A DNA stretch of 64,000 bases from Chelativorans sp. (GTDB lineage Bacteria; Pseudomonadota; Alphaproteobacteria; Rhizobiales; Rhizobiaceae): assembly GCF_031180965.1 (NCBI RefSeq), contig NZ_JAPSLH010000014.1:1-64000 (forward strand), written 5' to 3'. The notes below the pieces were generated by a model, which did not search any database, was not told the DNA's origin, and saw nothing but the letters and a program-made list of their open reading frames with translations. The position numbers and the translations under genes were made by a program. Numbering within the stretch: position 1 is the stretch's first letter; each line of letters opens with the position of its first letter. Positions 8,905 through 29,944 of the stretch are shown one piece after another.

Positions 8905-8918
8905 TAGAGAGCTAAACC

Positions 8919-10175
8919 ATGCTGCTTGGCTGCATCGGCGACGACTTCACCGGCTCTTCCGACCTCGCCAACACCTTGGCAAAGGGCGGTATGCGCACCG
9001 TGCAGTATACCCGGATTCCGACCGAAAGGGCTCTGCCCGGGGCGCAGGCCGCAGTCATTTCGCTGAAATCGCGCACATGCCCGCCCCCGGAGGCAGTGGC
9101 GATGTCGTTGGCAGCCTTGCAATGGCTGCAGGAGCAGGGCTGCCGCCAGTTCTTCTTCAAATATTGCTCCACCTTCGATTCGACGCCGGACGGCAATATC
9201 GGCCCGGTGGTCGAGGCGCTTGCGGACCGACTTGGCGTCGACCGCACCATCATCTGCCCCGCTTTTCCCGCGACCGGGCGGACGCTTTACCACGGTCACC
9301 TCTTCGTCGGTGACCGTCTGCTCAGCGAGTCGGGGATGGAGCGCCATCCGCTGACGCCGATGACGGATTCCGACATCAGGCGCTGGCTCGCGCGCCAATC
9401 CCGCAGCGGGGTTGGTCATATCGACCACAGCATTGTTTCCCAGGGCGCAGAGGCGATCGAGGCCGCACTCGAAGCGCAAGCGCGGAAGGGGCGTCGGCTG
9501 ATTGTAGTGGACGCCCTTCAGGACAGCCACCTGATGGCCATCGGCGCGGCCTCCAGGAACCTGCGCCTGGTAACCGGCGGCTCAGGCGCGGCTCTGGGCT
9601 TGCCGATGAACTTCCGCCGAGCCGGGCTTTTAGGAGAGGGTGGCTCCCGCGCATGGGCAGGAACGCCCGGACCAGCCGCCGTCCTGTCGGGCTCCTGTTC
9701 GACGGCCACCCGCAAGCAGATCGCAAGTCACAAGGCCGCATGCCAGCCGACATTCGCGATCAGCGTAGACCAGATCATGGCCGGATCTCTCGAGGCCCAG
9801 CATCTGGCCTCCTGGTTCGCCCGCCACCAGGATGCGGTACCGCTTGCTTATTCTTCCGCTGAACCCGATGCGGTGGCCGAAGTGCAAGCCAGATATGGCA
9901 GGGAAGCTGCGGCCTCGAAGCTGGAGGCGTTCTTCGCCGACACGGCGAAGCATCTCGTCGCGCAGGGAATCAGGCGGCTCGTAGTGGCTGGCGGCGAAAC
10001 CTCCGGAGCGGTGGTCGGCGCCATTGCCGGCGAGACGCTCGAGATCGGACCGGAAATCGATCCCGGCGTTCCCATCCTGAAAGTCAGCGGCGCCACCCTT
10101 TCCCTGGCGCTCAAGTCCGGGAACTTCGGCAGCGACGACTTCTTCATCAAGGCGGCGGAGATGATGGCGGGATGA
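8919..10175 (+). CDS. otnK: Four-carbon acid sugar kinase (3-oxo-tetronate 4-kinase family)
   Basis: A 418-residue member of the former DUF1537 kinase family. The N terminus LGCIGDDFTGSSDLANTLAK is the family signature for acid-sugar binding, followed by AAVISLKSRTCPP and FFKYCSTFDSTPDGNIGPV (highly conserved). The C-terminal nucleotide-binding part contains VAGGETSGAVVGAI and LALKSGNFGSDDFF. Known members phosphorylate 3-oxo-tetronates (OtnK) or D-threonate. The next gene, an OtnC-type decarboxylase overlapping by four bases, favours the OtnK assignment, in which the product is decarboxylated to dihydroxyacetone phosphate. Confidence 0.9.
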   Translation: MLLGCIGDDFTGSSDLANTLAKGGMRTVQYTRIPTERALPGAQAAVISLKSRTCPPPEAVAMSLAALQWLQEQGCRQFFFKYCSTFDSTPDGNIGPVVEALADRLGVDRTIICPAFPATGRTLYHGHLFVGDRLLSESGMERHPLTPMTDSDIRRWLARQSRSGVGHIDHSIVSQGAEAIEAALEAQARKGRRLIVVDALQDSHLMAIGAASRNLRLVTGGSGAALGLPMNFRRAGLLGEGGSRAWAGTPGPAAVLSGSCSTATRKQIASHKAACQPTFAISVDQIMAGSLEAQHLASWFARHQDAVPLAYSSAEPDAVAEVQARYGREAAASKLEAFFADTAKHLVAQGIRRLVVAGGETSGAVVGAIAGETLEIGPEIDPGVPILKVSGATLSLALKSGNFGSDDFFIKAAEMMAG

Positions 10176-10813
10176 CGAGCGAAGTCACAAGGCTGCGGGA
10201 AGAGATCTGCCTTCTTGCACGATCCATGTTCGACCGCGGCCTGACGCACGGGTCTACCGGCAATATCAGCGCGCGGCTCGCAGACGGCGGCCTGTTGGTT
10301 ACACCGACGGGGTCATCGTTCGGCAGGCTCGATCCGGCCCGCTTGTCCCGCTTTGACGCGAACGGCCGCCTCGTTGACGGCGACCCGCCGACCAAGGAGA
10401 TGCCGCTTCACACCGCCTTCTACGAAACGACCGCCGCCGGCGCGGTCGTTCATCTCCACGCGACTCATTCCGTCGCGCTCTCGATCCTTCCCAATACCGA
10501 TCCCGATGATGTCCTGCCGCCGCTGACGGCGTATTCGGTGATGAAGCTCGGCAAGGTCAAACTGCTGCCGTTCTTCGCGCCCGGCGATCCCCAGATGGGG
10601 GCCGCGATCCGCGAGCTCGCCGGCCGCCATCCGGCCGTGCTCCTTGCCCACCATGGCCCGGTCGTCGCCGCCGGCGATCTCAGCGCCGCAGTGGAGGCGA
10701 TGGAGGAGCTGGAGGCTACCGCGCGTCTGGTCCTCCTGTGCCACGGCCTGAATCCGCGGCGGCTTGCACCCGAACAGATCGACGCCGTGCGCGCCAGGGC
10801 TTCGGGTCTCTAG
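10172..10813 (+). CDS. otnC: 3-oxo-tetronate 4-phosphate decarboxylase (class II aldolase family)
   Basis: A 213-residue class II aldolase/adducin-fold protein. Visible signatures are RGLTHGSTGNISARL (phosphate-binding loop), VTPTGSSFGRLDPARLS, the metal-binding VVHLHATHSVALS and the later LLAHHGPVVAA; the catalytic Glu is in TKEMPLHTAFYE. With otnK, whose stop codon it overlaps, it would complete conversion of a 3-oxo-tetronate to dihydroxyacetone phosphate and CO2. The dehydrogenase and isomerase that normally make the 3-oxo acid in tetronate pathways are not in this window. Confidence 0.87.
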   Translation: MTSEVTRLREEICLLARSMFDRGLTHGSTGNISARLADGGLLVTPTGSSFGRLDPARLSRFDANGRLVDGDPPTKEMPLHTAFYETTAAGAVVHLHATHSVALSILPNTDPDDVLPPLTAYSVMKLGKVKLLPFFAPGDPQMGAAIRELAGRHPAVLLAHHGPVVAAGDLSAAVEAMEELEATARLVLLCHGLNPRRLAPEQIDAVRARASGL

Positions 10814-15398: not shown

Positions 15399-16070
15399 CT
15401 AGGCGCCGCCTTCCATGGATTTCTTCGCCGCCGCTTTCGCCCTTAAGAGGTGCTTCTTCGAAGCTTTGCGCGCGGCCTTTTCGTCGCCAGCGGCGATGGC
15501 TTCGAAGATCTCCCTCATCTCAGCCAGGCTGCTTTGTGCTCTGCCTTCCAATGACATCGACCGTCCGCGAAAGAAGCTGATTCTGGCTACGAGACCGCGG
15601 TGGACTTCCTCCAGGACAGGGTTTCCGCAATTGCCGAGTATGGTCGAATAGAAGTCTGCGGCGGTCATGACTTGGGCCAGGCTGTCATTGCTGGATGCCG
15701 CCGCTTCGAACGCCAAAAGGGACTTCTCAAGTTCATGCAGCTGCTCCGCGGAAATCCTCAACGCGCATCGTCCAGCAGCCTCCACTTCCAGCAGCTCTCG
15801 AACCTCGTAGATGGCTGTTGCCTCCTCCCACGAAAGCGCCGGTATCGACGGACCGCGATTGGGTACAATTTCGATCAGGCGTTCAGCTTCAAGGCTACGC
15901 AGCGCCTCCCTTAATGAGGGGCGGCTGACGCCGAGTTGCGCACATAACTGACTTTCGACAAGGCGGCTTCCCGGCGGGAATATTCCAGAAAAGATGGCGA
16001 ACCGTAGCTTGTCGACGGTCTCCTGCTGCACCGTTCTTGGTGAAATCCGCAAATTCAAACCTGGCGTCAT
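15399..16070 (-). CDS. GntR-family (FCD) repressor of vitamin B6 degradation
   Basis: A 223-residue FadR-type GntR regulator. The winged helix occupies about residues 12-75 (TVQQETVDKLRFAIFSG, PPGSRLVESQLCAQLGVSRP and LREALRSLEAERLIEI). The helical FCD ligand domain follows (YEVRELLEVEAAGRCALRIS ... ADFYSTIL). The M. loti homologue mll6786, as I recall, represses the B6 degradation genes and is relieved by a pathway compound. Here the gene lies between the pyridoxine oxidase gene (same strand, about 150 bases downstream) and the divergent lower-pathway operon, the expected position for a local repressor. Confidence 0.85.
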   Translation of the reverse strand: MTPGLNLRISPRTVQQETVDKLRFAIFSGIFPPGSRLVESQLCAQLGVSRPSLREALRSLEAERLIEIVPNRGPSIPALSWEEATAIYEVRELLEVEAAGRCALRISAEQLHELEKSLLAFEAAASSNDSLAQVMTAADFYSTILGNCGNPVLEEVHRGLVARISFFRGRSMSLEGRAQSSLAEMREIFEAIAAGDEKAARKASKKHLLRAKAAAKKSMEGGA

Positions 16071-16226: not shown

Positions 16227-17090
16227 ATGAGAGGGGAAACGGTCTGGGGGGCGTTGAACTTGGCGGCAAATGCATCTTATGGCCAATTGAACTCGCGACG
16301 GATCGATACGGGTGGAATCACCTTGAACGTCCGCGAGGCCGGCAACGGCCCTTTGATGCTGTTCTTTCATGGCATCACCGCCAACTCCGCCGTCTTTGCA
16401 CCCTTGATGACTCGGCTCTCGTATCGCTTCACCACCATAGCGGTTGATCAAAGGGGCCATGGCAAGAGCGGTAAGCCGGAAAGCGGCTACAACGCGGACG
16501 ATTTCGCAAACGACATCGCTGCCCTGATACGCAGTCTCGACAAAGGTCCTGCCATTCTCGTGGGACATTCGCTGGGTGCGAGAAACTCGGTCACGGCTGC
16601 CGCGAAATACCCGGACCTGGTGCGGTCGGTCATAGCAATCGACTTCACGCCATATATCGAGCCTGAAGTGTTCGACGCGTTGGAGGCCCGTGTAAACGCT
16701 GGAGATCAGCTTTTCGAGAATTTACAGGCCGTCGAGGCATATCTGGCCAACCGGTATCCGAACATTCCCGCCGATGCCATCAGAATTCGGGCCGAAAGCG
16801 GATATCAGCCGGTCGATGGCGGGCTGCGTCCACTGGCGTCGCCCACTGCCATGGCTCAAACCGCCAAGGGCCTGCGATCAGACCTGACGCCTGCCTATCG
16901 CGAAGTGAAGAAGCCCGTCCTCATCATCCGCGGTGAACTCAGCAAGTTGGTTTCGGCCGCGGCGCTGGCAAAGACAAGCCGGCTGCGCCCGGACCTGCCT
17001 GTGGTCGTCGTCCCGAACGCTGATCACTACGTCAATGAGGTGTCTCCCGACATCACGCTGAAAGCGATCACGAATTTCATCGATGCCTGA
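16227..17090 (+). CDS. Alpha-(N-acetylaminomethylene)succinic acid (AAMS) hydrolase
   Basis: An alpha/beta-hydrolase of 287 residues from the ATG, or 278 from an in-frame TTG at 16254 preceded by a GGGGGG ribosome-binding-like run. The shorter form brings the catalytic triad to Ser106 (GHSLGA), Asp130 (AIDF) and His258 (NADHY), the numbering I recall for the 278-residue M. loti enzyme, so TTG is probably the true start. The oxyanion-hole HGITANS segment is present. The enzyme hydrolyses the ring-opened product of MHPCO to succinic semialdehyde, acetate, ammonia and CO2, the last step of B6 degradation pathway I. It is the first gene of the lower-pathway operon, 42 bases before MHPCO. Confidence 0.87.
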   Translation: MRGETVWGALNLAANASYGQLNSRRIDTGGITLNVREAGNGPLMLFFHGITANSAVFAPLMTRLSYRFTTIAVDQRGHGKSGKPESGYNADDFANDIAALIRSLDKGPAILVGHSLGARNSVTAAAKYPDLVRSVIAIDFTPYIEPEVFDALEARVNAGDQLFENLQAVEAYLANRYPNIPADAIRIRAESGYQPVDGGLRPLASPTAMAQTAKGLRSDLTPAYREVKKPVLIIRGELSKLVSAAALAKTSRLRPDLPVVVVPNADHYVNEVSPDITLKAITNFIDA

Positions 17091-17132
17091 CGGCCGATCA
17101 CGCCGTCTTCTTGTACGCAATAGGATCTGAAA

Positions 17133-18272
17133 ATGGCCAATGTGAACAAAACATCCGGCAAGTCGCGTCGCGCGGAAGTCGCGGGTGGCGGCTTTGCGGG
17201 TCTGACAGCCGCCATCGCTCTGAGGCAGAACGGTTGGGATGTCAGGTTGCACGAGAAGAGCTCAGAACTGCGGGCATTCGGCGCAGGCATCTACCTCTGG
17301 CACAACGGGCTTCGCGTGCTCGAAGGCATAGGCGCCCTGGACGACGTTCTCCAGGGCTCCCACACGCCTCCAACCTATGAGACCTGGCTGCACAACAAGT
17401 CGATCTCGAAGGAGACGTTCAACGGTCTTCCCTGGCGCATCATGACCCGGAGTCACCTGCACAATGCATTGGTTGCTCGTGCCCGTGCCGTGGGTGTCGA
17501 TATCCGCGTGAATTCGGAGGCCGTTGCCGCCGACCCGGAAGGGCGCCTGACCCTCCAGACTGGAGAGGTTCTCGAAGCCGATTTGATTGTCGGCGCCGAC
17601 GGTGTTGGATCCAAGGTCAGGGATTCCATCGGTTTCGAGCAGGACCGGTGGATTTCCATAGACGGTCTGATCCGACTGATTGTCCCACGCAAGAAGAAGG
17701 AACTTGGCCATGGCGAGTGGGATAACACCATCGACATGTGGAACTTCTGGCCGCGCGTGCAGCGGATTCTCTATTCTCCCTGCAATGAGAACGAGCTCTA
17801 TCTGGGCCTCATGGCCCCGGCCGCGGATCCACGCGGATCGCGGGTCCCGATCGACCTGGAAGTCTGGGTCGAGATGTTCCCCTTTCTGGAGCCGTGCCTG
17901 ATCGAGGCGGCGAAGCTGGAAACTGCCAGATACGATAAGTACGAAACGACCAAGCTGGCTAGCTGGACGAGGGGCAAGGTCGCCCTTGTGGGAGATGCCG
18001 CACATGCAATGTGCCCGGCTCTTGCCCAAGGCGCCGGCTGCGCGATGGTGAACGCTTTCAGCCTGTCGCAAGACTTGGAAACAGGCTCCTCCGTCGAAGA
18101 CGCGTTGGTCGATTGGGAAAAGCGCATTCGCCCGATCACGGATCGCTGCCAGGCCCTGTCTGGCGAATATGCGGCGAACCGTTCGCTCTCGAAGGGAAAC
18201 ATGTTCACGCCGGCAGCCTTGGAGGCTGCTCGTTACGATCCGCTGCGCCGCGTGTTCTCATGGCCCCAGTAG
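17133..18272 (+). CDS. 2-methyl-3-hydroxypyridine-5-carboxylate oxygenase (MHPCO)
   Basis: A 379-residue single-component flavin monooxygenase, the length I recall for M. loti MHPCO. The Rossmann motif is AEVAGGGFAGLTAAIAL (residues 14-30), the DG motif LIVGADGVGSKVR (151-163) and the GD motif ALVGDAAHAMCPALAQGAG (284-302). The residues I recall from the MHPCO active site, Tyr82, Arg181, Arg211, Tyr223 and Tyr270, all fall at the same numbers. The enzyme hydroxylates and cleaves the pyridine ring of MHPC, using NADH and O2, to give AAMS, the substrate of the preceding gene's hydrolase. This is the most diagnostic gene of the B6 island. Confidence 0.95.
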   Translation: MANVNKTSGKSRRAEVAGGGFAGLTAAIALRQNGWDVRLHEKSSELRAFGAGIYLWHNGLRVLEGIGALDDVLQGSHTPPTYETWLHNKSISKETFNGLPWRIMTRSHLHNALVARARAVGVDIRVNSEAVAADPEGRLTLQTGEVLEADLIVGADGVGSKVRDSIGFEQDRWISIDGLIRLIVPRKKKELGHGEWDNTIDMWNFWPRVQRILYSPCNENELYLGLMAPAADPRGSRVPIDLEVWVEMFPFLEPCLIEAAKLETARYDKYETTKLASWTRGKVALVGDAAHAMCPALAQGAGCAMVNAFSLSQDLETGSSVEDALVDWEKRIRPITDRCQALSGEYAANRSLSKGNMFTPAALEAARYDPLRRVFSWPQ

Positions 18273-18338
18273 CGTCGGTCAGCCGCTCAACAAATGAATT
18301 GGCGCGCGCGGGAGCTGCGCTCTGCCTAGGAGATGAGA

Positions 18339-18947
18339 ATGGACTATTCGGCTGAAGTTGAAAAACACTATGAGGTGCGCGGCTGGTATTCGACCGTTCA
18401 TGAAATCCGGCATGACGGCGGACAACCTGGCGATACCCTCGTCAAGGCGGCGGTGGGCGTCGTCATACGCAATCCTTTTGCTGGCAAATTCGTCGCCGAT
18501 TTGTCCCCTCTCATAGATCCCAGTCCGGCCATCGGTCATGCGCTCGGCCAGCGAGTCGTGGCCCTGCTCGGCAACAGGCCGGTCGAAAGCTATGGCAAGG
18601 GCGGTATCGCCGGCACAGCCGGTGAGCAGGAGCATGTCGTCGCCTGCATCACCACCGCGTTTGGAAACCCACTGCGGGAACAGGTAGGTGGCGGGAAGGC
18701 CTGGATCTCGTCGGCCAGCAAAGTGGCCGCCGCCGGCGCATCCATCGACATACCGCTCGCCCACAAGGATGAGCTCTACATCCGTTCCCACTATGACGCC
18801 GTCACCTTCTCCGTACCGGATAGCCCGCGCCCGAATGAGCTTTTGATCTGCGTCGCCGCCGCAACCGGCCCGCGCGTGCATCAGCGCGTCGGCGGCAAAT
18901 CCGTCGCTGACCTAAGGCCGCCATCTAGTTCGATCGGAACCTATTAA
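18339..18947 (+). CDS. DUF1185-type 'amino acid synthesis' family protein
   Basis: A 202-residue soluble protein. ATG 18339 was chosen because AGGAG ends six bases before it, whereas the track start at 18333 abuts that site. Conserved-looking blocks are YEVRGWYSTVHEIRHDGGQP, VVIRNPFAGKFVADLSPLID, GKGGIAGTAGEQEHVVACIT and RSHYDAVTFSVPDSPRPNEL. I associate these with the Pfam amino-acid-synthesis family (former DUF1185), which is often found beside amidohydrolase or heterocycle-degrading genes. No catalytic role is established to my knowledge. Its position inside the lower-pathway operon suggests a function in B6 catabolism, perhaps with the unstable ring-cleavage product or a lactam or amide intermediate (inference). 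Confidence 0.75.
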   Translation: MDYSAEVEKHYEVRGWYSTVHEIRHDGGQPGDTLVKAAVGVVIRNPFAGKFVADLSPLIDPSPAIGHALGQRVVALLGNRPVESYGKGGIAGTAGEQEHVVACITTAFGNPLREQVGGGKAWISSASKVAAAGASIDIPLAHKDELYIRSHYDAVTFSVPDSPRPNELLICVAAATGPRVHQRVGGKSVADLRPPSSSIGTY

Positions 18948-18959
18948 AGGACCAATTCC

Positions 18960-19418
18960 ATGCCTCTGAACATCAAGGACCTCAAGATTACATCCGCTGA
19001 TTTCCAGCCGCTCGGGAAAATGCGGGATGAGCATGCCGGCGACAAGGGCAACGTCCTGCCCAAGCTGACGATAAGCGGCGTCCCGGCGGGTGCAAAAGAA
19101 CTCGCGGTTATTTGCCATGACCCCGACGCGCCCTTGCCCAACGGCTTCACGCATTGGGTCGTCTACGGCATCGATCCGTCGACGACCGATCTTTCTGACG
19201 CGCAGGAGAAGTTTCGCGTGGGACCCAATGGCGTCGGCGACAAGCAGTACTACGGGCCTCAGCCGCCGGCCGGCCACGGAGTGCATCACTATTATTTCTG
19301 GGTCTACGCCCTGGACACAAAGGTCGAGGGAACGCCTACCCGCGAGGAATTCCTCCAGAAATATGCCGGAAACATCATCGAGCAGAACCGGATTGTCGGC
19401 ACTTACGAGAACAAATGA
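18960..19418 (+). CDS. YbhB/YbcL-type PEBP (Raf-kinase-inhibitor-like) protein
   Basis: A 152-residue phosphatidylethanolamine-binding-protein family member without a signal peptide. The family's ligand-pocket blocks are present: LAVICHDPDAPLPNGFTHWV (the DPDAP motif), VVYGIDPSTTDL, GPQPPAGHGVHHYYFWVYAL and TREEFLQKYAGNIIEQNRIV. It lies 12 bases after the DUF1185-type gene and before the HMPDC decarboxylase gene, in the B6 lower operon. Bacterial members have no settled physiological role; a PEBP protein in a catabolic operon might bind an anionic aromatic intermediate, but this is speculation. Confidence 0.85.
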   Translation: MPLNIKDLKITSADFQPLGKMRDEHAGDKGNVLPKLTISGVPAGAKELAVICHDPDAPLPNGFTHWVVYGIDPSTTDLSDAQEKFRVGPNGVGDKQYYGPQPPAGHGVHHYYFWVYALDTKVEGTPTREEFLQKYAGNIIEQNRIVGTYENK

Positions 19419-19490
19419 AAGCAGCGGCCGCAGCGATCAATAACAAGAACAAGAACGAACGTGCTCGCTGTGCAATGGGAGAATTCGAGA

Positions 19491-20213
19491 GTGACAAACA
19501 GCAACTCCGCTCGCCAGACGATCTTCGAGGAGCTGGTGACAGCGACGAAGATCCTGCTAAACGAGGGCATCCTCGATACGTTCGGGCACATCAGTGCCCG
19601 TGACCCCGAGGATCCCCAGAGCTTCTATCTGGCGCAGAAGCTTGCTCCGAGCCTGATCACGGCCGATGACATCCTGCGTTTCAACCTCGATGGTGAGACG
19701 ACGGACAATCGGCCGGCCTACCTGGAACGCTATATTCACAGCGAGATCTACAAGGCACGGCCGGACGTTCATTGCGTTCTGCACAGCCATTCTCCGGCCG
19801 TCCTGCCCTATTGTTTCACCGATCAGCCGCTGCGGCCCGTGACCCATATGGGCGCGTTTCTGGGCGAACGGGTTCCCGTGTACGAAATACGCGACAAGCA
19901 CGGTGATGAGACCGACCTCTTCGGCGGTGGCCGCGATGTCTGCCGGGATATCGCCGAAAGCCTGGGCGATCAGGCCGTTGTTCTCATGGCGCGCCATGGC
20001 GTCGTGAATGTCGGGAAGTCGATCCGGGAAGTGGTCTTTCGCGCCTTCTACACGGAACAGAACGCTGCGGCGCAGACGGTTGGCCTGCAGATCGGCAACA
20101 TCAAGTATTTGTCGCCGGGCGAGATCAAGACCGCAGGCAAGCTCGTCGGCGCCCAGATCGATCGGGGATGGGATCACTGGTCGCAACGCCTCAAGGAGGC
20201 AGGGTTGGCCTAG
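19491..20213 (+). CDS. 3-hydroxy-2-methylpyridine-4,5-dicarboxylate 4-decarboxylase (HMPDdc)
   Basis: A class II aldolase/adducin-fold protein of 240 residues from the GTG at 19491, which has GGGAGA eight bases upstream; the track start at 19461 is also a GTG but lacks one. Metal ligands lie in [13 protein letters not shown] (His98, His100) and MARHGVV (His169), with [11 protein letters not shown] holding the family's acidic residue. The fold is shared with fuculose-phosphate aldolase, so a generic annotation would be aldolase. The placement next to the 4-pyridoxate and FHMPC dehydrogenases matches M. loti mlr6791-6793, where the product decarboxylates HMPDC to MHPC. It is probably Mn-dependent, as in M. 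loti. Confidence 0.87.
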
Positions 20214-20288
20214 GGCCGAAGGACCATGAGAGACGCCGGAGAACGCCGGTTCGGCGCGAGGCGTTGGAGGAAGGCGGCCAAGCGTAAC

Positions 20289-21914
20289 ATGCAGCACGCG
20301 GAAAGCTACGACTACATCATCGTTGGGGCCGGATCGGCCGGCTGCGTGCTCGCCAACCGGCTGAGCGCGGATCCCAGATGTTCGGTGCTGCTGCTCGAGG
20401 CCGGCGGCTGGGACCGTGACCCCATGATCCATATTCCGCTCGGATGGGGCAAGATTCTGACCGAGCGTCGCCACGACTGGATGTATTTCTGCGAGCCTGA
20501 AGACAATGTCGGCGGACGCAGGGTCGAGTGCGCGCGCGGCAAGGTCATCGGCGGATCATCCTCGACCAACGCCATGGCCTATGTGCGGGGCAATCGCGGC
20601 GACTACGACCGCTGGGCAGCAAGCGGGCTCAGCGACTGGTCGTATGAGAAGGTCCTGCCCTATTTCCGCAAGCAGGAAAGCTGGGAGGGGGGCGAAAGCC
20701 ACTATCGCGGCGGCTCCGGACCACTCAACACCCAGTTCTGCCGCTACAAGGACACGCTGATCGACGCCTTTGCGCAGGCCAGCGAGCAGGCGGGCTATCC
20801 GCAGACAAAGGACTACAACGGCGAGCAGCAGGAAGGCTTTGGGCGCCTGCAGATGACGATCTCGAAAGGCCGTCGGTGCTCAACCGCGTCCGCCTATCTG
20901 CGGCCGGTCCTGAAGCGGTCGAACCTGACCGTCCTGACGGGAGCGATGGCGACGAAGATCGTTATGGAGGGCACGCGCGCCACCGGCATCACGATGTGCC
21001 ATCGCGGCGCCGAACGCACGGTTCTCGCCCGCAGGGAAGTTCTGCTCGCAGGCGGCGTGATCAACACGCCGCAACTCCTGATGCTCTCCGGCATAGGCGC
21101 GCCGGAGGAGCTTGCGGCCCATGGCATTCAGACGCGAGTCAATCTGCCGGCCGTCGGCAAGAACCTGCAGGATCACGTCTCGGTCATCCTCATGTACCGG
21201 CGCCGGAGTCCCGGCCCCTTCCTGCGCAAGATGCGTGCGGATCGGATCGCGTTCGATTTCCTGAAGACCTACCTTACCGGAACGGGGTTTTCGGCAGACG
21301 TCCCCGGCGGCGTGGTGGCATTCCTGAAAAGCGGGCCTGAGCGGCCGTTGCCGGATGTGCAGCTTCTCTTCACGGCTGCTCCGCTCGCTGCCTGGCCTTA
21401 TTTCAAGCCCTTCAAGGAGCCCTTCCCGGATGGCTTTGCGACCCGGGTGGTGGCGACACAGCCCGAAAGCCGGGGGGCGGTGAAGCTCGCCTCGGCCGAT
21501 CCTGCCGCCGCACCGCTGATCCATCAGAACTTCCTCGCCTCGCCCAAAGATTGGGAATCACTGCGGGCCGGCTTTCGGGTGGCAAGGGATCTCGCGGCCC
21601 AGCCCGCCATGCAGCCCTTCATCCAGGCGGAATTCTTTCCTGGCACAAAATGCCAGAGCGATGACGAGATCGACGAGCATATCCGCCAGACCTCCATCAC
21701 CGTGCATCATCCGGCAGGGACCTGCCGGATGGGGGCGGACGCGGCCTCGGTCGTCGACCCGGAGCTGCGCGTTCGCGGCGTTGGCGGCCTCAGAGTGGTT
21801 GACGCCTCCGTCATGCCCGACCTGGTCTGCGGAAACATAAACGCGGCAGTCATCATGATTGCCGAGAAAGCCGCCGACCTCATCGCCACATCAAAAGCAA
21901 GCGGGGCAGCGTGA
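20289..21914 (+). CDS. 4-pyridoxate dehydrogenase (GMC family)
   Basis: A GMC oxidoreductase of 541 residues from the ATG at 20289; the track start at 20226 adds an Arg-rich leader and GGAGGAAGG lies just upstream of the chosen start. Motifs: [56 protein letters not shown] and [11 protein letters not shown], with [18 protein letters not shown] at the second active-site position. In M. loti the membrane-associated, FAD-dependent enzyme from the syntenic gene mlr6792 oxidises the 5-hydroxymethyl of 4-pyridoxic acid to FHMPC and passes electrons to the respiratory chain. Synteny, not motif, separates it from choline dehydrogenase-like enzymes. It overlaps the next gene's start region. Confidence 0.85.
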
Positions 21915-22843
21915 TGATCCAGCGCATCGCCATTATCGGTCTGGGTACCATGGGGCCGGGCATGGCCGCCAGGCTCGCCAGAGGTGGCCTCCAGGTTACC
22001 GCCTGCGATGTCGCCCCGGCGGCCATCGAGCGCGCGAAAACGATGTTGAGCGCGGCAGAGACCGTTCTCGACGCGTTGGGGATCGCCACACCGGCAACGG
22101 GTGCAGGAACGGTGCGCTTCACCGGCGATATCGCCGAGGCGGTTGCCGGCGCCGACCTCGTCATCGAGAACGTTCCGGAAAACCTTTCGATCAAGGCCGA
22201 TGTCTATCGCGCGATCGACGGCCTGATCGCGGCGGACACGATCGTTGCATCGGACACCTCGGGCATTCCGATCACGCAGCTGCAGGCGCACATCTCAAAT
22301 CCTGCACGGATGGTCGGCATGCACTGGTCGAACCCGCCGCACATCATCCCGATGATCGAGGTCATCGGCGGCGAACAAACCGCTCCGGAGACGGTGCAGA
22401 CCATTCGTGACCTCATTCGCTCGCTCGGTCTCCTGCCGGTCGTGGTGAAAAAGGACGTTCCGGGCTTCGTCGAGAACCGGGTGCTCTATGCGCTGCTTCG
22501 CGAGGTGGTCGACCTCGTCGAGCGCGGCGTGATCGAGCCTGAGGACATCGACACCTGTGTGTCCTGGGGCATCGGCTACAAGCTCGCCGTCGTCGGGCCG
22601 ATGGCGCTGCTCGATATGGCCGGGCTCGACATCTACAACTCGGTTTCCTCGTTCCTCAATGCGGACCTTTCCGACCGCAAGGATGTCGCGCCTATGATTG
22701 GCCGGAAGATCGCGGCCGGCACGCTTGGGATCAAGTCGGGCGAAGGGATCTACGCCTACACGCCCGAGCGCATCGCCGAACTCCAGCGCGAACGCGCGCG
22801 CAAGCTGGTCGCCATCCGGCGCATCCTTGAGGGACGTGACTGA
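21914..22843 (+). CDS. FHMPC 5-dehydrogenase (3-hydroxyacyl-CoA-dehydrogenase-like)
   Basis: A 309-residue NAD-dependent dehydrogenase. It has a Rossmann motif IAIIGLGTMGPGMAARLA, IENVPENLSIKADVYR, VASDTSGIPIT, the catalytic GMHWSNPPHIIPMIEVI block and KDVPGFVENRVLYALLREVV. With the ATG at 21914 the catalytic His is residue 137, the number I recall for the M. loti enzyme; the track used a GTG one codon earlier. The fold resembles 3-hydroxyacyl-CoA dehydrogenase, but synteny with mlr6793 points to 5-formyl-3-hydroxy-2-methylpyridine-4-carboxylate 5-dehydrogenase, which produces HMPDC. It directly overlaps the 4-pyridoxate dehydrogenase stop codon. Confidence 0.88.
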   Translation: MIQRIAIIGLGTMGPGMAARLARGGLQVTACDVAPAAIERAKTMLSAAETVLDALGIATPATGAGTVRFTGDIAEAVAGADLVIENVPENLSIKADVYRAIDGLIAADTIVASDTSGIPITQLQAHISNPARMVGMHWSNPPHIIPMIEVIGGEQTAPETVQTIRDLIRSLGLLPVVVKKDVPGFVENRVLYALLREVVDLVERGVIEPEDIDTCVSWGIGYKLAVVGPMALLDMAGLDIYNSVSSFLNADLSDRKDVAPMIGRKIAAGTLGIKSGEGIYAYTPERIAELQRERARKLVAIRRILEGRD

Positions 22844-22847
22844 CGCC

Positions 22848-23399
22848 ATGGCGATCGAAGGCGAGCCTCTGAAGCAGACAGCACGGGAAACTGCCCCGTC
22901 GCGTTTGACCGGGTGGGCGATGAACTCGCTGCACACTTTGCTCGGCCTGACCCTGCTGTTCGTTGTTGGCGTCAACGTGGTGAATGCCGTCAGCCGCTAC
23001 CTGTTCGGCATCTCGCCAGTAGGGGCCGACGAGCTGATGGTCTACGTGGTGATCTGGGCAGTCATGATTGCCGCCATCCTCTCGTTGATCCTGCGGTCCC
23101 ACATCAACGTCAACCTGCTGCCTTTGTACACCAAGGGGCGGGTGCGCCACCTGCTTCACGTCATCCATGATGGCGCGGCGATCCTCGCCTGCGGATACGC
23201 GACCTACGCGTCCTGGCTCTTCATCGGCCGAATCGCGAAACTGGGTGTCACGAGCATGGGGCTCGGTCTGCCGATGACCGTCCCGCACGCGGCGCTGCTG
23301 ATTGGCTTTGCAGGGCTCACTGCGGTGGGAGCCCTAATGCTGGCGCGCGATCTTATGGCGCTGATCCGCAATGCGCCGGATGCGGAGGCGGAGCAGTGA
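22848..23399 (+). CDS. TRAP transporter small permease (DctQ-like), B6 operon
   Basis: A 183-residue membrane subunit starting at ATG 22848, four bases after the FHMPC dehydrogenase stop; the earlier track start lies inside that gene. Four hydrophobic segments are seen, with VNAVSRYLFGISPVGADELM (the DctQ RY-W.EE-type motif in a divergent form) and LSLILRSHINVNLLP. The tight spacing puts it in the lower-pathway operon. It would partner the DctM and DctP proteins encoded next. Confidence 0.88.
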   Translation: MAIEGEPLKQTARETAPSRLTGWAMNSLHTLLGLTLLFVVGVNVVNAVSRYLFGISPVGADELMVYVVIWAVMIAAILSLILRSHINVNLLPLYTKGRVRHLLHVIHDGAAILACGYATYASWLFIGRIAKLGVTSMGLGLPMTVPHAALLIGFAGLTAVGALMLARDLMALIRNAPDAEAEQ

Positions 23400-24667
23400 T
23401 TGCGTCCCTCGCCCTCCTCCCGCTGCTTCTCCTCGCAGTTGGAACGCCGGTTTTCATCGTGTTCCTGACGGCGGCCGCGGTGACGATGATGTTCGTCACG
23501 CCTCTGCCGCCCGTAACCCTGCAGCAGGTCCTCTTTGGCGGCCTCGACAATTACGCGCTGCTGGCAATTCCCTTCTTCGTGTTCGCCGGCGAATTGATGA
23601 GCACAAGCGGCATCGCGCATCGATTGATCAACTGGACGATGGCAATGGTCGGCCGCGTGCCGGGCAGCCTGGGGGTCGCCACCGTCGGCGCCTCGACCGC
23701 GATCGGTGCGATCAGCGGATCGAGCGTGGCAGCGGTCGCAGCACTCGGCAAGACGCTTTACCCGAAGCTGGTGGCCTCGGGCTACGGCAAGGAGCGGGCT
23801 GGCGGGCTGCTTGCTTCTGCCGGAGCGATCGACATCGTCATTCCGCCCAGCATCGCCATGATCCTCTACGGCTTGGCGGCGGAGCAATCCATTCCGAGGC
23901 TCTTCATGGCCGGGGTGCTTCCCGGCGTTTTGATGGCCGCGATGATGGCAGGGTTCGTGGTCCTCGTTGCGGTGCGGCGCGGCATCCCGAGCGAAGGCCG
24001 CTTCGAACCCAGCCTCGCCTTGCGAGCGACAAAAGAGGCGTTCTGGGCGCTGCTGATGCCGATTTTCGTGCTTGGCGGCATCTATTTCGGCATGTTCTCT
24101 CCGACGGAGGCGGGCGGGTTCGCCTGCGTCTACGCGATTCTGATAGCGCTGTTTGTTTACCGGACGATGACAGTTCTCCAGGTCATCAAAGCGGCCGGCA
24201 ATGCGGCGATCCTCTCGGGCCAGATCCTGATCATCGTGGCGGCCGCCAGCGTCATTACCTGGATGTTGACGACGCAAGGCGTGCCTCAGGCGATCACCGC
24301 GGGCATCAATGCAATGCAGCTCGACGCGCTGACCTTCCTGCTTGCCGTTAACGTCGTCCTGCTGGTGATCGGCTGCTTCCTCGACCCGACCTCCGCCATC
24401 CTTGTCTTCGCGCCGCTGCTGGTTCCGATTGCGATTTCGCTCGGGATCGATCCGATACACTTCGGCATCGTCATGACGGTAAACCTGGCCATCGGCATGT
24501 TCACACCACCCTTCGGCCTGAACATCTTCGTGGCGCAGTCCGTCACGGGCCTTCCGGCTCACTCGCTCTACCGCGGCGTAGCGCCCTTTGTCCTGGTGCT
24601 CGTGCTGGCGCTGCTCATCATCACCTACGTCCCGGCGTTGTCGCTCACGCTTGGTTCGCAACTCTAG
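23396..24667 (+). CDS. TRAP transporter large permease (DctM-like), B6 operon
   Basis: A 423-residue polytopic membrane protein. It starts at a GTG overlapping the DctQ stop codon by four bases. Family blocks are AIPFFVFAGELMSTSGIAHR, STAIGAISGSSVAAVAALGK, ASAGAIDIVIPPSIAMILYG and VMTVNLAIGMFTPPFGLNIF. It is the transport subunit of a sodium-coupled TRAP system. Placed between B6-degradation enzymes and its own binding-protein gene, its substrate is likely a carboxylated pathway compound (see findings). Confidence 0.92.
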   Translation: MIASLALLPLLLLAVGTPVFIVFLTAAAVTMMFVTPLPPVTLQQVLFGGLDNYALLAIPFFVFAGELMSTSGIAHRLINWTMAMVGRVPGSLGVATVGASTAIGAISGSSVAAVAALGKTLYPKLVASGYGKERAGGLLASAGAIDIVIPPSIAMILYGLAAEQSIPRLFMAGVLPGVLMAAMMAGFVVLVAVRRGIPSEGRFEPSLALRATKEAFWALLMPIFVLGGIYFGMFSPTEAGGFACVYAILIALFVYRTMTVLQVIKAAGNAAILSGQILIIVAAASVITWMLTTQGVPQAITAGINAMQLDALTFLLAVNVVLLVIGCFLDPTSAILVFAPLLVPIAISLGIDPIHFGIVMTVNLAIGMFTPPFGLNIFVAQSVTGLPAHSLYRGVAPFVLVLVLALLIITYVPALSLTLGSQL

Positions 24668-24681
24668 AAAAGGGGAACCCG

Positions 24682-25686
24682 ATGCTTTCCAGATTTCTCA
24701 AAGCCGCGGCGCTGACCACCGCACTCGTGCTGGCGCCATTCGCAGCCGCGCATGCGCAGTCGACAATGAAGCTCGCATCGGCAACGATCAATGACGTCCA
24801 GCATGAATGGCAGAAGGTATTTGCCAGGGAACTTGAGGCGCGTGTCGGCGGTGCGGTGAAAACTGAGATCTATCCCGCAAGCCAGCTCGGTGCGATTCCC
24901 CGTCTGGCGGAGGGTGTGTTGCTCGGCACCATCGAGGCCTTCACGACACCCACTTCCTTCATGACCAATGTCGACCCTCGCTTCCAGGCCTTCGATGTCC
25001 CTGGGCTCTTCAAGACGCCGCAGGATGTGCAAGCGGCCATTCACAATCCGGAATACCGCCAGCATCTGGAGGAAATGTTCCTGGACAAGGGCCTGCGCGT
25101 CATCGGCGCGATCTATAACAGTCCCACTGTCGTGTTCACGATGAAGGAAGTGACGACGCTTGCCGGCCTGCGCGGGCTGAAGATCCGCACCTTCGCCTCG
25201 CCATTGCAGATCAAGCCGATGGAACTGGTGGGCGCCACGCCTCTACCGCTGGCTCTGACCGAGGTCATCCCGCAGCTCGAATCCGGCGGCCTGGATGGAA
25301 TGCTGGTGGGCATGCCGATCCTGACCGCCTTCAAATACTACGACGTCGGCAAGAACATCCTCGACCTGCGCTTCGCCGAGATCGTCTCCGTGACCGTTGT
25401 CAACGACGATTGGTTCCAGGCGCAGACCGACGAGGTCAAGGCCGCCATCATCGAAGCCGGCCGCGCCGCCGAGACGCAGGTTTTCCCTTGGGGCGTCGAG
25501 AACGTCGAGAAAACCTACAAGGTCTGGACCGACAATGGCGGCAAGGTGAACAAGCTGTCGCCCGAGGAGCAGGCCAAGATGGAAGCCGACTTCGCGAAGC
25601 TTGCCGCTGACCTGTTGGCGCAGGAGCCGGAGGTGAAGGCTGAGTACGACCGGCTGCTCGAATTGGTTGAAAAGGCGAAGCAGTGA
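24682..25686 (+). CDS. TRAP solute-binding protein (DctP-like), candidate 4-pyridoxate receptor
   Basis: A 334-residue secreted binding protein with a signal peptide ending AAAHAQ (about residue 26). DctP features are EIYPASQLGAIPRLAEGVLL, AFDVPGLFKTP, the LAGLRGLKIRTFASPLQIKP segment with the Arg that usually pairs with the ligand carboxylate, and LTEVIPQLESGGLDGML. It ends the operon that encodes the lower B6 pathway. 4-Pyridoxic acid is a small aromatic carboxylate excreted by animals as the main B6 catabolite, which makes it a plausible ligand; this is inference from context and the Arg, with no direct evidence. Confidence 0.9.
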   Translation: MLSRFLKAAALTTALVLAPFAAAHAQSTMKLASATINDVQHEWQKVFARELEARVGGAVKTEIYPASQLGAIPRLAEGVLLGTIEAFTTPTSFMTNVDPRFQAFDVPGLFKTPQDVQAAIHNPEYRQHLEEMFLDKGLRVIGAIYNSPTVVFTMKEVTTLAGLRGLKIRTFASPLQIKPMELVGATPLPLALTEVIPQLESGGLDGMLVGMPILTAFKYYDVGKNILDLRFAEIVSVTVVNDDWFQAQTDEVKAAIIEAGRAAETQVFPWGVENVEKTYKVWTDNGGKVNKLSPEEQAKMEADFAKLAADLLAQEPEVKAEYDRLLELVEKAKQ

Positions 25687-26199: not shown

Positions 26200-27237
26200 A
26201 TGACAGGTTTGATCAAACGCAGCATGCTGGCTGCGCTGGCTGCGACCTTCCTGGCAGGAGCCGCGGTTGCGGCCGAGGTGAAGTCGATTGCCATCCTGAC
26301 GCCCGAGGAAGGCACCGACTTCGGCTGGAATCAGCAGGGCGTCGACGCGGCAAAGGCAGCCGCCGAGGCGGCCGGCATAGAGGTTATCGTGGCGTCCGGT
26401 CTTGGCTACGGTGACGTTCGCCCGGCCATGCGCGAGATCGCTGCCGACGGGGCGAGCTTGATCATCGCCCATGCCAGCGGCTACGCGACCTCGGCGCCGG
26501 AAATCGCCGCAGAAACGAACGTGCCGGTGGCGATCGTCGACTCTCCGCAGGCGCTGCAGGCGGGTCTCGTTGCCGATTACACGCTGAGCGGTCATGAAGG
26601 TGCCTATCTGGCCGGCCGCCTCGCAGCGAAGATGAGCCGCTCCAAACATGTGGGCATTGTGGTGTCGGGCGAGCCGCCGTCCTGGAACTCGCAGTCGGCC
26701 GGCTTCGCCGAGGGCGTAAAGGCCGAGAACCCGGATGTGAAGATCACCTACGCGGTGATCGGACCTGCCGCCTACAGCGACGCTGCCGGTGGCCGTCGCG
26801 TGACCGAAAGCGTCATCGCGGCGGGCGCCGATATCATCTTCGGCCAGGGCAACGGATCGAGCTTCGGCATGCTGCAGGCCGTCGAGACGACCAAGGCTGC
26901 CGATGGCGGCAAGGTGCTGTTCATCGACGTGATCGGCGACAAGACGTCCGTGGGCAAAGGGTTCCTGCTCAGCTCCGTCGTCTGGGACATCACGCCCGTC
27001 TACTCGGCCATGATCAAGGATCTGCAGGACGATACCTTCGGCACCAAGCGATACGCGATCGGCCTCGCCGACGACTCGGTGAAACTGCTCAAGACCGACC
27101 AGATCCCGGACAATGTGTGGGGCGAGGTCCAGAAGATTCGCGAGCAGATGATCTCCGGTGAGATCAAGGTGGAGCCCGTTTTCGAGGCCACCGCTGTGCG
27201 CGCGCTGATGACCGACGTCTCGGCGGCGGCCCAGTAG
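26200..27237 (+). CDS. BMP-family ABC transporter substrate-binding protein
   Basis: A 345-residue binding protein of the BMP/PnrA (nucleoside receptor) family. The signal peptide ends GAAVAAEV (about residue 24). Family features are ILTPEEGTDFGWNQQGVDAA, IIAHASGYATSAPEIAAETN, HEGAYLAGRLAAKMSRSKHV and DIIFGQGNGSSFGMLQAVET. A GGGAGAAG ribosome-binding site precedes the ATG. It heads the operon that continues with ATPase, two permeases, 4-pyridoxolactonase, PPAT and pyridoxal dehydrogenase, so its ligand is probably a B6 vitamer such as pyridoxine or pyridoxamine, chemically comparable to a nucleobase derivative. Ligand assignment is by context only. Confidence 0.9.
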   Translation: MTGLIKRSMLAALAATFLAGAAVAAEVKSIAILTPEEGTDFGWNQQGVDAAKAAAEAAGIEVIVASGLGYGDVRPAMREIAADGASLIIAHASGYATSAPEIAAETNVPVAIVDSPQALQAGLVADYTLSGHEGAYLAGRLAAKMSRSKHVGIVVSGEPPSWNSQSAGFAEGVKAENPDVKITYAVIGPAAYSDAAGGRRVTESVIAAGADIIFGQGNGSSFGMLQAVETTKAADGGKVLFIDVIGDKTSVGKGFLLSSVVWDITPVYSAMIKDLQDDTFGTKRYAIGLADDSVKLLKTDQIPDNVWGEVQKIREQMISGEIKVEPVFEATAVRALMTDVSAAAQ

Positions 27238-27249
27238 GGGGCCGACTCG

Positions 27250-27275
27250 CGGAAGGGGTCCGAAGACCCCTTCCG
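27250..27275 (+). promoter_or_regulatory. Perfect intercistronic hairpin after the binding-protein gene
   Basis: CGGAAGGGGTC and GACCCCTTCCG form an 11-bp perfect stem around a CGAA loop, 13 bases after the binding-protein stop. There is no T-run afterwards, so it is not a classical terminator. A stable stem directly behind a binding-protein gene and before the ABC subunits is a known way to protect the upstream mRNA and give more binding protein than permease; that role is inferred. Confidence 0.6.
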
Positions 27276-27302
27276 CCGTCCGGTGCCAGGTGGAGCGGAA
27301 CG

Positions 27303-28856
27303 ATGGAACCCATCAAGGATCATTCAGGACCGGCGATCGTGACGCTTGACGGCGTGACGAAGCGCTTCCCCGGCATCGTTGCCAACGACAGGATCGATCT
27401 TGAAATCCGCGCCGGCGAAGTGCACGTCCTCCTTGGTGAGAATGGTGCCGGCAAGTCGACGCTCATCGGCATGCTGTCAGGTCTCCAGCAGCCGGACGAA
27501 GGCCGCATCCTGGTTGACGGCAGGGAGATGCCGATCCGCTCGCCCAGCCATGCCTTGTCGCTCGGCATCGGTACCGTATTCCAGCACAACATGCTCGTGC
27601 CGACGCTCACCGTTGCGGAAAACCTCGCGCTGGGCGGCCGATGGTGGCAGCGGCCGAAGATTGCCGAGCTTGCCGCGCGTGTGGCCGACATCTCCCGGCC
27701 GCTCGGTATCGAGATCAATCTTGCCGCGCGGGTGTCCGAACTCTCGCTTGGCGAACAGCAGCAGGTGGAGATCGTCCGCGCGCTGCTGCGCGAAAGCCGC
27801 CTCCTGATCCTCGACGAAGCGACCTCCATGCTGACGCCCCAGGGTATCGCGGAACTCGGCGCGCTCATGCGGCGCCTGGTGGAACGCGGACTTGCCGTGG
27901 TCTTCATCACGCACAAGCTGGGCGAGGCAGCCGATTTTGGCGACCGTGTCTCGGTGCTCAAGCTTGGCCGCAAGGTGGGCGAGATCCCGCCGGAACACCT
28001 GCGCACCCGCGATCGAGCCGAGTTGATCGATGAGATCGTCGCCATGATGTTCGGGCGGCAGGCAGGTGACGACGCGGTTTCCGTTCCGCTGCGCGCCGCC
28101 AATGACGACGGTCTGCTTGAGGTGCGTAACCTCAGCGTGACGCCAACCGCAGATGCGCAGGGTCTCGACGCGGTCTCGCTCTCGGTCGGGTCCGGCGAGA
28201 TCCTGGGCATCGCCGGCATCGATGGCAACGGCCAGAAGCAGCTGGCCGAAGCGCTTGCCGGACAGCGGCCTGCCACCGGCGGCAGCGTGATGCTCGCAGG
28301 ACAGCCACTCGATGACCTGGACGTCGGCGGGCGCCGCAGGCAGGGACTGCGCTATCTCACCGACGACAGGCTGGGCGAAGGGACAGTGGGTGCCTTCCCC
28401 GTCTCGGTCAACTATTTCCTCAAGCAGATAGGCGAGCCGCCGCTCTGGCGCTCCGGCATCGAGCGCTCCGGCGAAATAGTAGCACGCGCCCAGGACCTGA
28501 CGCGGCTCTATGATGTCCGCACACCGGCCGTCTCGACACCGGTTGGCAGGCTTTCCGGCGGCAATATCCAGAAGGTGCTCATCGCCCGCGAACTTGCCGA
28601 CGGCGCTCGAGCCGTCATCTTCAACAAGCCGACCTATGGCCTCGACCTCGCCAACACGCTGGCCACGCGCCAGCGCATCCGTGACATCGCCGGGCAAGGC
28701 CTCGCGGTGCTCCTGATCTCAACCGACCTGGAGGAACTGCTCAGCATGTGCCACCGCATCGCCGTCATCTCGCAGGGGCGCCTGGTGGGCATCGTCCCGA
28801 ACGGCGCCGGCGCGGGGGAACGGGTGGGCCGCCTCATGATCGGACTTGCAGCATGA
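27303..28856 (+). CDS. ABC transporter ATPase (two nucleotide-binding domains), BMP-linked
   Basis: A 517-residue ATPase with two fused ABC domains of the sugar/nucleoside (RbsA/NupA) type. Domain 1 carries the Walker A GENGAGKSTLIGMLSG, signature LSLGEQQQVEIVRALL and Walker B LLILDEATSML. Domain 2 has a degenerate Walker A (GIAGIDGNGQKQLAEALAG, with Gln where Lys is usual) and the signature LSGGNIQKVLIARELAD with a modified Walker B AVIFNKPTYGLD. Such asymmetry is normal for the family. It energises the two permeases that follow, and its stop overlaps the first permease start by four bases. Confidence 0.93.
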   Translation: MEPIKDHSGPAIVTLDGVTKRFPGIVANDRIDLEIRAGEVHVLLGENGAGKSTLIGMLSGLQQPDEGRILVDGREMPIRSPSHALSLGIGTVFQHNMLVPTLTVAENLALGGRWWQRPKIAELAARVADISRPLGIEINLAARVSELSLGEQQQVEIVRALLRESRLLILDEATSMLTPQGIAELGALMRRLVERGLAVVFITHKLGEAADFGDRVSVLKLGRKVGEIPPEHLRTRDRAELIDEIVAMMFGRQAGDDAVSVPLRAANDDGLLEVRNLSVTPTADAQGLDAVSLSVGSGEILGIAGIDGNGQKQLAEALAGQRPATGGSVMLAGQPLDDLDVGGRRRQGLRYLTDDRLGEGTVGAFPVSVNYFLKQIGEPPLWRSGIERSGEIVARAQDLTRLYDVRTPAVSTPVGRLSGGNIQKVLIARELADGARAVIFNKPTYGLDLANTLATRQRIRDIAGQGLAVLLISTDLEELLSMCHRIAVISQGRLVGIVPNGAGAGERVGRLMIGLAA

Positions 28857-29941: not shown

Positions 29942-29944
29942 TCG

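Follow-up and report, generated by a model that had tools for sequence, protein, structure and literature searches.

A DUF1185 and PEBP gene pair accompanies the ring-opening enzymes of vitamin B6 degradation

Introduction

The closest described counterpart of the locus presented here is pyridoxine degradation pathway I of Mesorhizobium loti. In this chemistry the flavin oxygenase MHPCO opens the ring to give the enamide AAMS, and AAMS hydrolase strips the acetyl group, reactions that are established for both families; when produced in E. coli, the two enzymes are active in vitro by themselves. The substrate of enamidase, like AAMS and the trigonelline intermediate, is an enamide of a beta-enamino acid. 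Hydrolysis of such an enamide gives the beta-enamino acid, which has to turn into an aldehyde, and the succinates subsequently lose CO2 to form succinic semialdehyde. To our knowledge, no role has been assigned to the DUF1185 and PEBP genes of the M. loti pathway, and we found no mention of mlr6788-6791 in the literature searched.

The DUF1185 (PF06684) family has a member, TgnF, in the trigonelline pathway of Acinetobacter baylyi ADP1, and the original TgnF paper is said to describe a hydrolase substrate, N-acyl-aminomethylene succinate, that is much like AAMS and yields succinic semialdehyde. TgnF is reported to stimulate the oxidation of succinic semialdehyde by TgnE, an effect that concerns the dehydrogenase step and not a defined substrate (PMC7913881). 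Stimulation was also sought for HcdD, a DUF1185 homolog, and could not be shown; the 7-hydroxycoumarin operon holds a DUF1185 gene, and its lactone needs opening by an unidentified protein (PMC7913881). The TgnF effect is the sole biochemical effect that we found reported for the PF06684 family.

PEBP/YbhB proteins are relatives of florigen and RKIP. The cavity of the family is lined by two Asp, two His and an Arg, and its members have been argued to be probably enzymes, with conserved residues that resemble an active centre; their enzymatic nature is considered an open question (PMC8793217).

Results

A complete B6 operon with two additional genes

The window analysed here (64,000 nucleotides of a Chelativorans sp. 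contig) carries a complete pathway-I B6 operon on the plus strand, at 16227-22843. It has the same enzymes in the same order as the M. loti pathway, of which it is a further example, and M. loti strains (L054 and L064) also carry the DUF1185 and PEBP pair. The first gene encodes AAMS hydrolase, an enamide hydrolase of the alpha/beta hydrolase type (16227..17090, +; PDB 3kxp, E 2.4e-145), and is followed by that of the ring-opening MHPCO (17133..18272, +), which matches PDB 3alj/3gmb/4h2n over its full length (E about 1e-247) and aligns with 3alj/3gmb across 379/379 residues. Next come the genes of the DUF1185/PF06684 (AA_synth) protein (18339..18947, +) and of the PEBP/YbhB-type protein (18960..19418, +). 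The operon continues with HMPDC decarboxylase, of the class II aldolase family (19461..20213, +; identified by PF00596 and its place in the cluster), a GMC oxidoreductase (20226..21914, +; PF00732 and PF05199) and FHMPC dehydrogenase (21911..22843, +; NF042925, 572 bits against a cut-off of 500). The GMC oxidoreductase is kept in full B6 clusters and is probably the 4-pyridoxate oxidoreductase, its exact substrate at the 4-pyridoxate stage being the probable part of this assignment. A GntR/FCD regulator (15399..16070, -; PF07729 and PF00392) diverges from the operon; it is found at most MHPCO loci, the reduced modules L096, L098, L099 and L102 (see below) included.

Several features make the B6 identity of the operon firm: MHPCO, AAMS hydrolase and FHMPC dehydrogenase are all present together in the window, and three genes downstream, at 26200-30880, pass the NCBIfam "putative B6 ABC transporter" equivalog models. 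The two genes therefore do lie between MHPCO and HMPDC decarboxylase in a B6 operon, all on the plus strand, as the initial annotation had described.

Both are real open reading frames with good ribosome-binding sites. The DUF1185 frame is open from 18333 or 18339 through 18947, and position 18339 is the likelier start because an AGGAG at 18328-18332 sits 6 nt upstream of it and the orthologs start with MDYS or MNYS.

The pair is linked to MHPCO

An alignment scan for MHPCO, run on one genome per species and not taking in pathway II B6 clusters, returned 59 true relatives, at 66-95% identity, plus a single chance match. Both DUF1185 and PEBP were present within the fetched DNA at 58 of these 59 loci, in keeping with the earlier proposal that the pair belongs to the pathway; since the genomes are related, these loci cannot be taken as 59 separate events and the counts overstate independence. 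The order MHPCO-DUF1185-PEBP was kept at 57 loci, with gaps of 29-105 and 3-22 bp, respectively. The loci span about two dozen genera, mostly alphaproteobacterial, including Mesorhizobium, Phyllobacterium, Hoeflea, Martelella, Aureimonas, Jiella, Labrenzia, Roseovarius, Pseudooceanicola and Pseudolabrys. This range, which reaches Roseovarius and Pseudooceanicola, rules out that the pair is conserved merely because only Mesorhizobium was sampled. The linkage of MHPCO, DUF1185 and PEBP is beyond chance.

Among five full clusters, pN/pS was 0.05-0.14 for PEBP, 0.06-0.13 for MHPCO, 0.15-0.22 for DUF1185 and 0.20-0.23 for AAMS hydrolase. These ratios point to strong constraint on both genes, with PEBP constrained to the level of MHPCO itself.

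The single exception, L093 (Bradyrhizobium dw_411), has MHPCO and AAMS hydrolase without DUF1185 and PEBP, and homologs of the two elsewhere in its genome reach just 46-47%. This locus, a natural null for the pair, also carries an NMT1-type ABC binding protein and a gene with an asparaginase domain. Another locus, L103 (titled Marinicella sp. W31), has genes that look split by frameshifts and are most like those of Martelella loci; the assembly is possibly mislabelled or error-rich.

The pair follows the ring-opening step

Two kinds of incomplete cluster separate the steps of the pathway. Three reduced clusters (L096, L098, L099) retain the GntR regulator, AAMS hydrolase, MHPCO, DUF1185 and PEBP, and have no HMPDC decarboxylase, 4-pyridoxate enzyme or FHMPC dehydrogenase nearby; transporter-type genes separate AAMS hydrolase from MHPCO in them, an ABC permease being confirmed in L098. 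Conversely, a survey of 398 genomes of the order found 12 with FHMPC dehydrogenase (11 above the model cut-off and one just below). Half of these carry the MHPCO/AAMS hydrolase module, including DUF1185 and PEBP. The other six comprise five complete clusters (L036, L038, L041, L042, L043) and one cut by the contig start (L040), and encode FHMPC dehydrogenase together with the 4-pyridoxate-type GMC enzyme wherever the contig extends far enough. In the five complete clusters MHPCO, AAMS hydrolase, HMPDC decarboxylase, DUF1185 and PEBP were not found nearby, and orthologs of AAMS hydrolase, DUF1185 and PEBP were absent genome-wide in all six. Instead, these five carry a gentisate-1,2-dioxygenase-like cupin, an LVIVD beta-propeller protein and a GST (L040 only the GST). 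This may be a third route of B6 breakdown, in which the salicylate-like HMPDC ring is cleaved directly.

The pair is thus kept without the upper genes and lost without MHPCO and AAMS hydrolase, and so follows these two enzymes. This double dissociation places it at the ring-opening/AAMS stage. The clusters that have the upper genes and lack the pair rule out a tie to the upper B6 pathway. Conservation in other B6 clusters, on which the initial annotation had staked its proposal, accordingly held in part: the pair is present in clusters that use MHPCO and absent where another ring-cleavage set is used, so that it is part of the MHPCO/AAMS hydrolase module and not of B6 degradation as such.

In the MHPC module of L102 (Tardiphaga), the DUF1185 gene that adjoins the regulator falls in the enamidase-context clade described below (support 96/86). 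MHPC modules have therefore recruited PF06684 at least twice.

The DUF1185 protein

The window DUF1185 protein scores 208 bits against the PF06684 gathering score of 27 (E 8.5e-62), covering positions 1-175 of 175. Its AlphaFold2 model (pLDDT 85), a monomer prediction, matches the fold of 3byq (TM 0.81, E 1e-18), and it thus shares the BCM-like fold of BB2672 (3BYQ) and SPO0826 (2QTP). A hexamer (trimer of dimers) is a trait of the family. The conserved interface and cavity residues of BB2672 (Glu/His/Arg/Tyr) can be traced onto it: E98, E100, H101, H153, R181 and R185 correspond to Glu90, Glu92, His93, His144, Arg172 and Arg176 and are invariant across 19 aligned proteins, and the full conserved set of BB2672 and SPO0826, which also includes His174, is likewise kept. 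The crystallographers saw in the conserved charged residues chiefly salt bridges of the interface and a histidine cluster, and proposed a role of the family in amino acid synthesis (PMC2954203). The latter is not supported by the catabolic contexts found here.

RidA (YjgF) had been considered as a ground for enamine chemistry of DUF1185. The fold search gave this no support, with no RidA entry among the best 50 Foldseek matches listed for the window protein; what the two share is just the general idea.

A second PF06684 gene in the window genome (G000:C12:96959-97483, L044) groups with the 6-hydroxynicotinate-reductase clade; its neighbours are hydantoinase-like genes, a MarR regulator and nucleoside-type transport genes.

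PF06684 genes beside other enamide hydrolases

The PF06684 survey drew on 249 genomes sampled from the phylum, 34 of which have the family; outside MHPCO modules it took in 40 additional loci and a number of annotated plasmid records. Ten loci hold a cassette of DUF1185, an alpha/beta hydrolase, a flavin reductase, a luciferase-like oxygenase and an ALDH, which by its gene content we take to be trigonelline-type; named records with it are L181 (Ruegeria) and L182 (S. meliloti pSymA). Here, as in the B6 operon, the DUF1185 gene adjoins an alpha/beta hydrolase, and TgnF is of the same PF06684 family; unlike the B6 module, these cassettes have a DUF1185 of another clade, a two-component luciferase-like ring-opening oxygenase, their own ALDH and no PEBP.

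Other PF06684 genes adjoin homologs of enamidase (PDB 2vun, E 1e-105 and 1e-109), with a flavin monooxygenase next in three loci and SSADH also in one (L184, Mariluticola). The chemistry of enamidase (enamide to alpha-formyl dicarboxylate) is analogous to AAMS hydrolysis; the nicotinate fermentation enzyme (2VUN) has an amidohydrolase fold, whereas the hydrolase of the B6 operon has an alpha/beta fold. The DUF1185 partners of enamidase are the closest PF06684 relatives outside MHPCO modules. A Burkholderia plasmid (L189) combines DUF1185 with an alpha/beta hydrolase, an MhpA-type monooxygenase and SSADH, and a large group (e.g. L139, L195) lies with 6-hydroxynicotinate reductase and a molybdenum hydroxylase, often together with an enamidase-type amidohydrolase. 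A smaller group sits beside FAH-like enzymes, a family name that comes from reading the sequences; these FAH clusters and L044 have no obvious enamide hydrolase in their context. PF06684 thus accompanies enamide hydrolases in several pathways, although these hydrolases have two unrelated folds, a pattern that suggests a reaction shared across contexts.

On the PF06684 tree the pathway contexts cluster (9 changes, against 44 in shuffles). The B6 DUF1185 clade is nearer to the enamidase and flavin monooxygenase clades than to the trigonelline-type clade, which is separate (100/100).

A quinolone cluster (L191) has a 41% MHPCO homolog and an alpha/beta hydrolase, with neither gene of the pair among the listed neighbours. 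This cluster, plasmid loci with MHPCO homologs (L192-L194) and the PF06684 clusters without such an enzyme weaken the idea that the pair is a general accessory of flavin monooxygenases.

Several loci (L139, L141, L142, L145, L195) hold tandem PF06684 genes from two clades, as if forming hetero-oligomers or splitting two reactions. At L139 and L195 a UPF0280-type protein, another uncharacterised companion of the reductive pathway, is encoded between 6-hydroxynicotinate reductase and DUF1185, and at L184 and L187 an uncharacterised DUF4286 protein lies close to the enamidase, DUF1185 and monooxygenase genes.

The PEBP protein

The window PEBP scores 119.6 bits against 24 for PF01161 (E 1.5e-34) and 92.8 against 57.75 for TIGR00481, the model of YbhB/YbcL-type PEBPs, whose Asp/His site (D54, D56, H65, H109) it keeps. 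D54, D56, H65, H109 and H110 are invariant in 58 sequences. Judged by sequence, four of the five cavity residues are conserved, and the usual Arg after the second His is H110. The MHPCO-linked proteins form a tight group (69-95% identity), whereas genes of the YbhB/YbcL family rarely lie in conserved operons (PMC8793217).

No PEBP gene was found beside the other DUF1185 loci tested. PEBP is therefore specific to MHPCO modules and serves something special to them. Generic PEBP relatives (L175-L177 and a Nostoc match, L185) had no catabolic context and gave no clue to a substrate.

Discussion

We give an even chance to a reading in which DUF1185 and PEBP belong, as dedicated components, to a ring-opening module of four genes (AAMS hydrolase, MHPCO, DUF1185, PEBP), DUF1185 acting after hydrolysis and PEBP on an MHPCO-specific compound. 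The initial annotation had seen no vacant step in the pathway. This holds on paper alone: the one EC reaction assigned to AAMS hydrolase covers three changes at once (amide hydrolysis, enamine/imine hydrolysis and decarboxylation), and the pathway as drawn skips the chemistry from AAMS to succinic semialdehyde. DUF1185 would act on the pool of beta-enamino acid and alpha-formyl dicarboxylate (2-aminomethylenesuccinate, 2-formylsuccinate) that follows AAMS hydrolysis; we place it there because the TgnF effect on succinic semialdehyde oxidation falls at this stage. It would speed the conversion of this pool to free succinic semialdehyde and ammonia, or rescue cyclised forms, candidate reactions being enamine/imine hydrolysis, tautomerisation, decarboxylation and the opening of a cyclised form. 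Acid-base chemistry might take place at the conserved E98, E100, H101, Y149, R151, H153, R181 and R185, which may be catalytic or structural.

The suggestion for PEBP is weaker. Context and residue conservation are the pointers to its substrate, and the conserved Asp/His anion site may receive a compound of the MHPCO module; binding, isomerisation or protection of AAMS are the simplest guesses, made with low confidence. PEBP may bind an anionic intermediate, as the initial annotation had proposed, the conserved site being what speaks for it. Neither protein is strictly required, since MHPCO and AAMS hydrolase function in vitro when produced in E. coli, from which PF06684 was absent in our control genomes. 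Also counting against the main reading are L093, which does without the pair, the failure to show stimulation by HcdD, the PF06684 contexts that lack an obvious enamide hydrolase, and the crystallographers' view of the charged residues as chiefly structural.

That DUF1185 acts on something arising from ring cleavage or AAMS, as had been suggested, is supported by the reduced modules and by the PF06684 genes beside other enamide hydrolases. To call it an orphan was an overstatement; it is a member of a known family in a new context. The statement that its role here would be the first known for the family in B6 degradation also needs qualifying, because an effect is reported for TgnF of the chemically parallel trigonelline pathway (PMC7913881).

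DUF1185 might instead open or hydrolyse cyclic (lactol, lactone, lactam) intermediates, such as the 5-hydroxybutyrolactone derived from succinic semialdehyde or a pyrrolinone derived from 2-aminomethylenesuccinate; it would then clear side products rather than serve the main line. Its dispensability in vitro is consistent with this; against it, the enamidase clusters pass through 2-formylglutarate, where we know of no lactone. The help that TgnF gives to semialdehyde oxidation and the DUF1185 gene of the 7-hydroxycoumarin operon, which requires lactone opening, fit such a role, but effects of HcdD were looked for and none was observed (PMC7913881). On balance we consider it unlikely.

It is somewhat more doubtful that both proteins are partners of MHPCO itself, in complex assembly, substrate delivery or product release. 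Both genes lie directly 3' of MHPCO, the constraint on PEBP equals that on MHPCO, and related DUF1185 lineages adjoin other group A flavin monooxygenases. However, PF06684 also occurs with luciferase-like oxygenases and in reductive clusters without such a monooxygenase, so that the hydrolase is the more constant partner, and the MHPCO crystal structures are of the enzyme by itself. For PEBP alone, partnership with MHPCO is about as likely as the role in the four-gene module proposed above.

A regulatory or sensing function, in which the two proteins as ligand-binding, pH-sensitive oligomers tune the pathway without catalysis, seems improbable to us. Environmental sensing was proposed in the PF06684 structure paper (PMC2954203) and PEBPs are classed as binding proteins, but the operon already has its own GntR regulator, the association follows hydrolases and no single regulator type, and the conserved PEBP residues are argued to look like an active centre (PMC8793217). 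That the genes are passengers, kept through shared operon ancestry with no role in the pathway, is very improbable: most loci are from related Hyphomicrobiales and L093 lacks both genes, but both have low pN/pS, both are retained in rearranged modules, a second DUF1185 was recruited independently in L102, and the pair is missing where a B6 cluster uses another ring-cleavage set.

Returning to a catalytic role in the ring-opening module, the contexts of PF06684 indicate that the family takes part in breaking down ring-opened N-heterocycles, and they give assays a definite class of substrates to start from; the database label "amino acid synthesis" is thinly based. Because PEBP is locked to a module of two enzymes, for which few metabolites come into consideration, the enzyme question is directly testable; should the MHPCO-linked PEBP prove catalytic, that one case would decide whether PEBPs of the YbhB type can be enzymes. 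Only tentatively do we propose the two together: PF06684 as a catalyst for beta-enamino acids and alpha-formyl dicarboxylates that acts after hydrolysis in several N-heterocycle pathways, hidden within an EC number, and the MHPCO-linked PEBP as an enzyme with a definable substrate.

Other genes of the window

TRAP genes at 23396-25686, together with the ABC transporter genes at 26200-30880, make two uptake systems near one operon. Upstream, at 7963-10813, a PfkB kinase, a 3-oxo-tetronate kinase and a 3-oxo-tetronate 4-phosphate decarboxylase form an ordinary four-carbon acid-sugar cluster.
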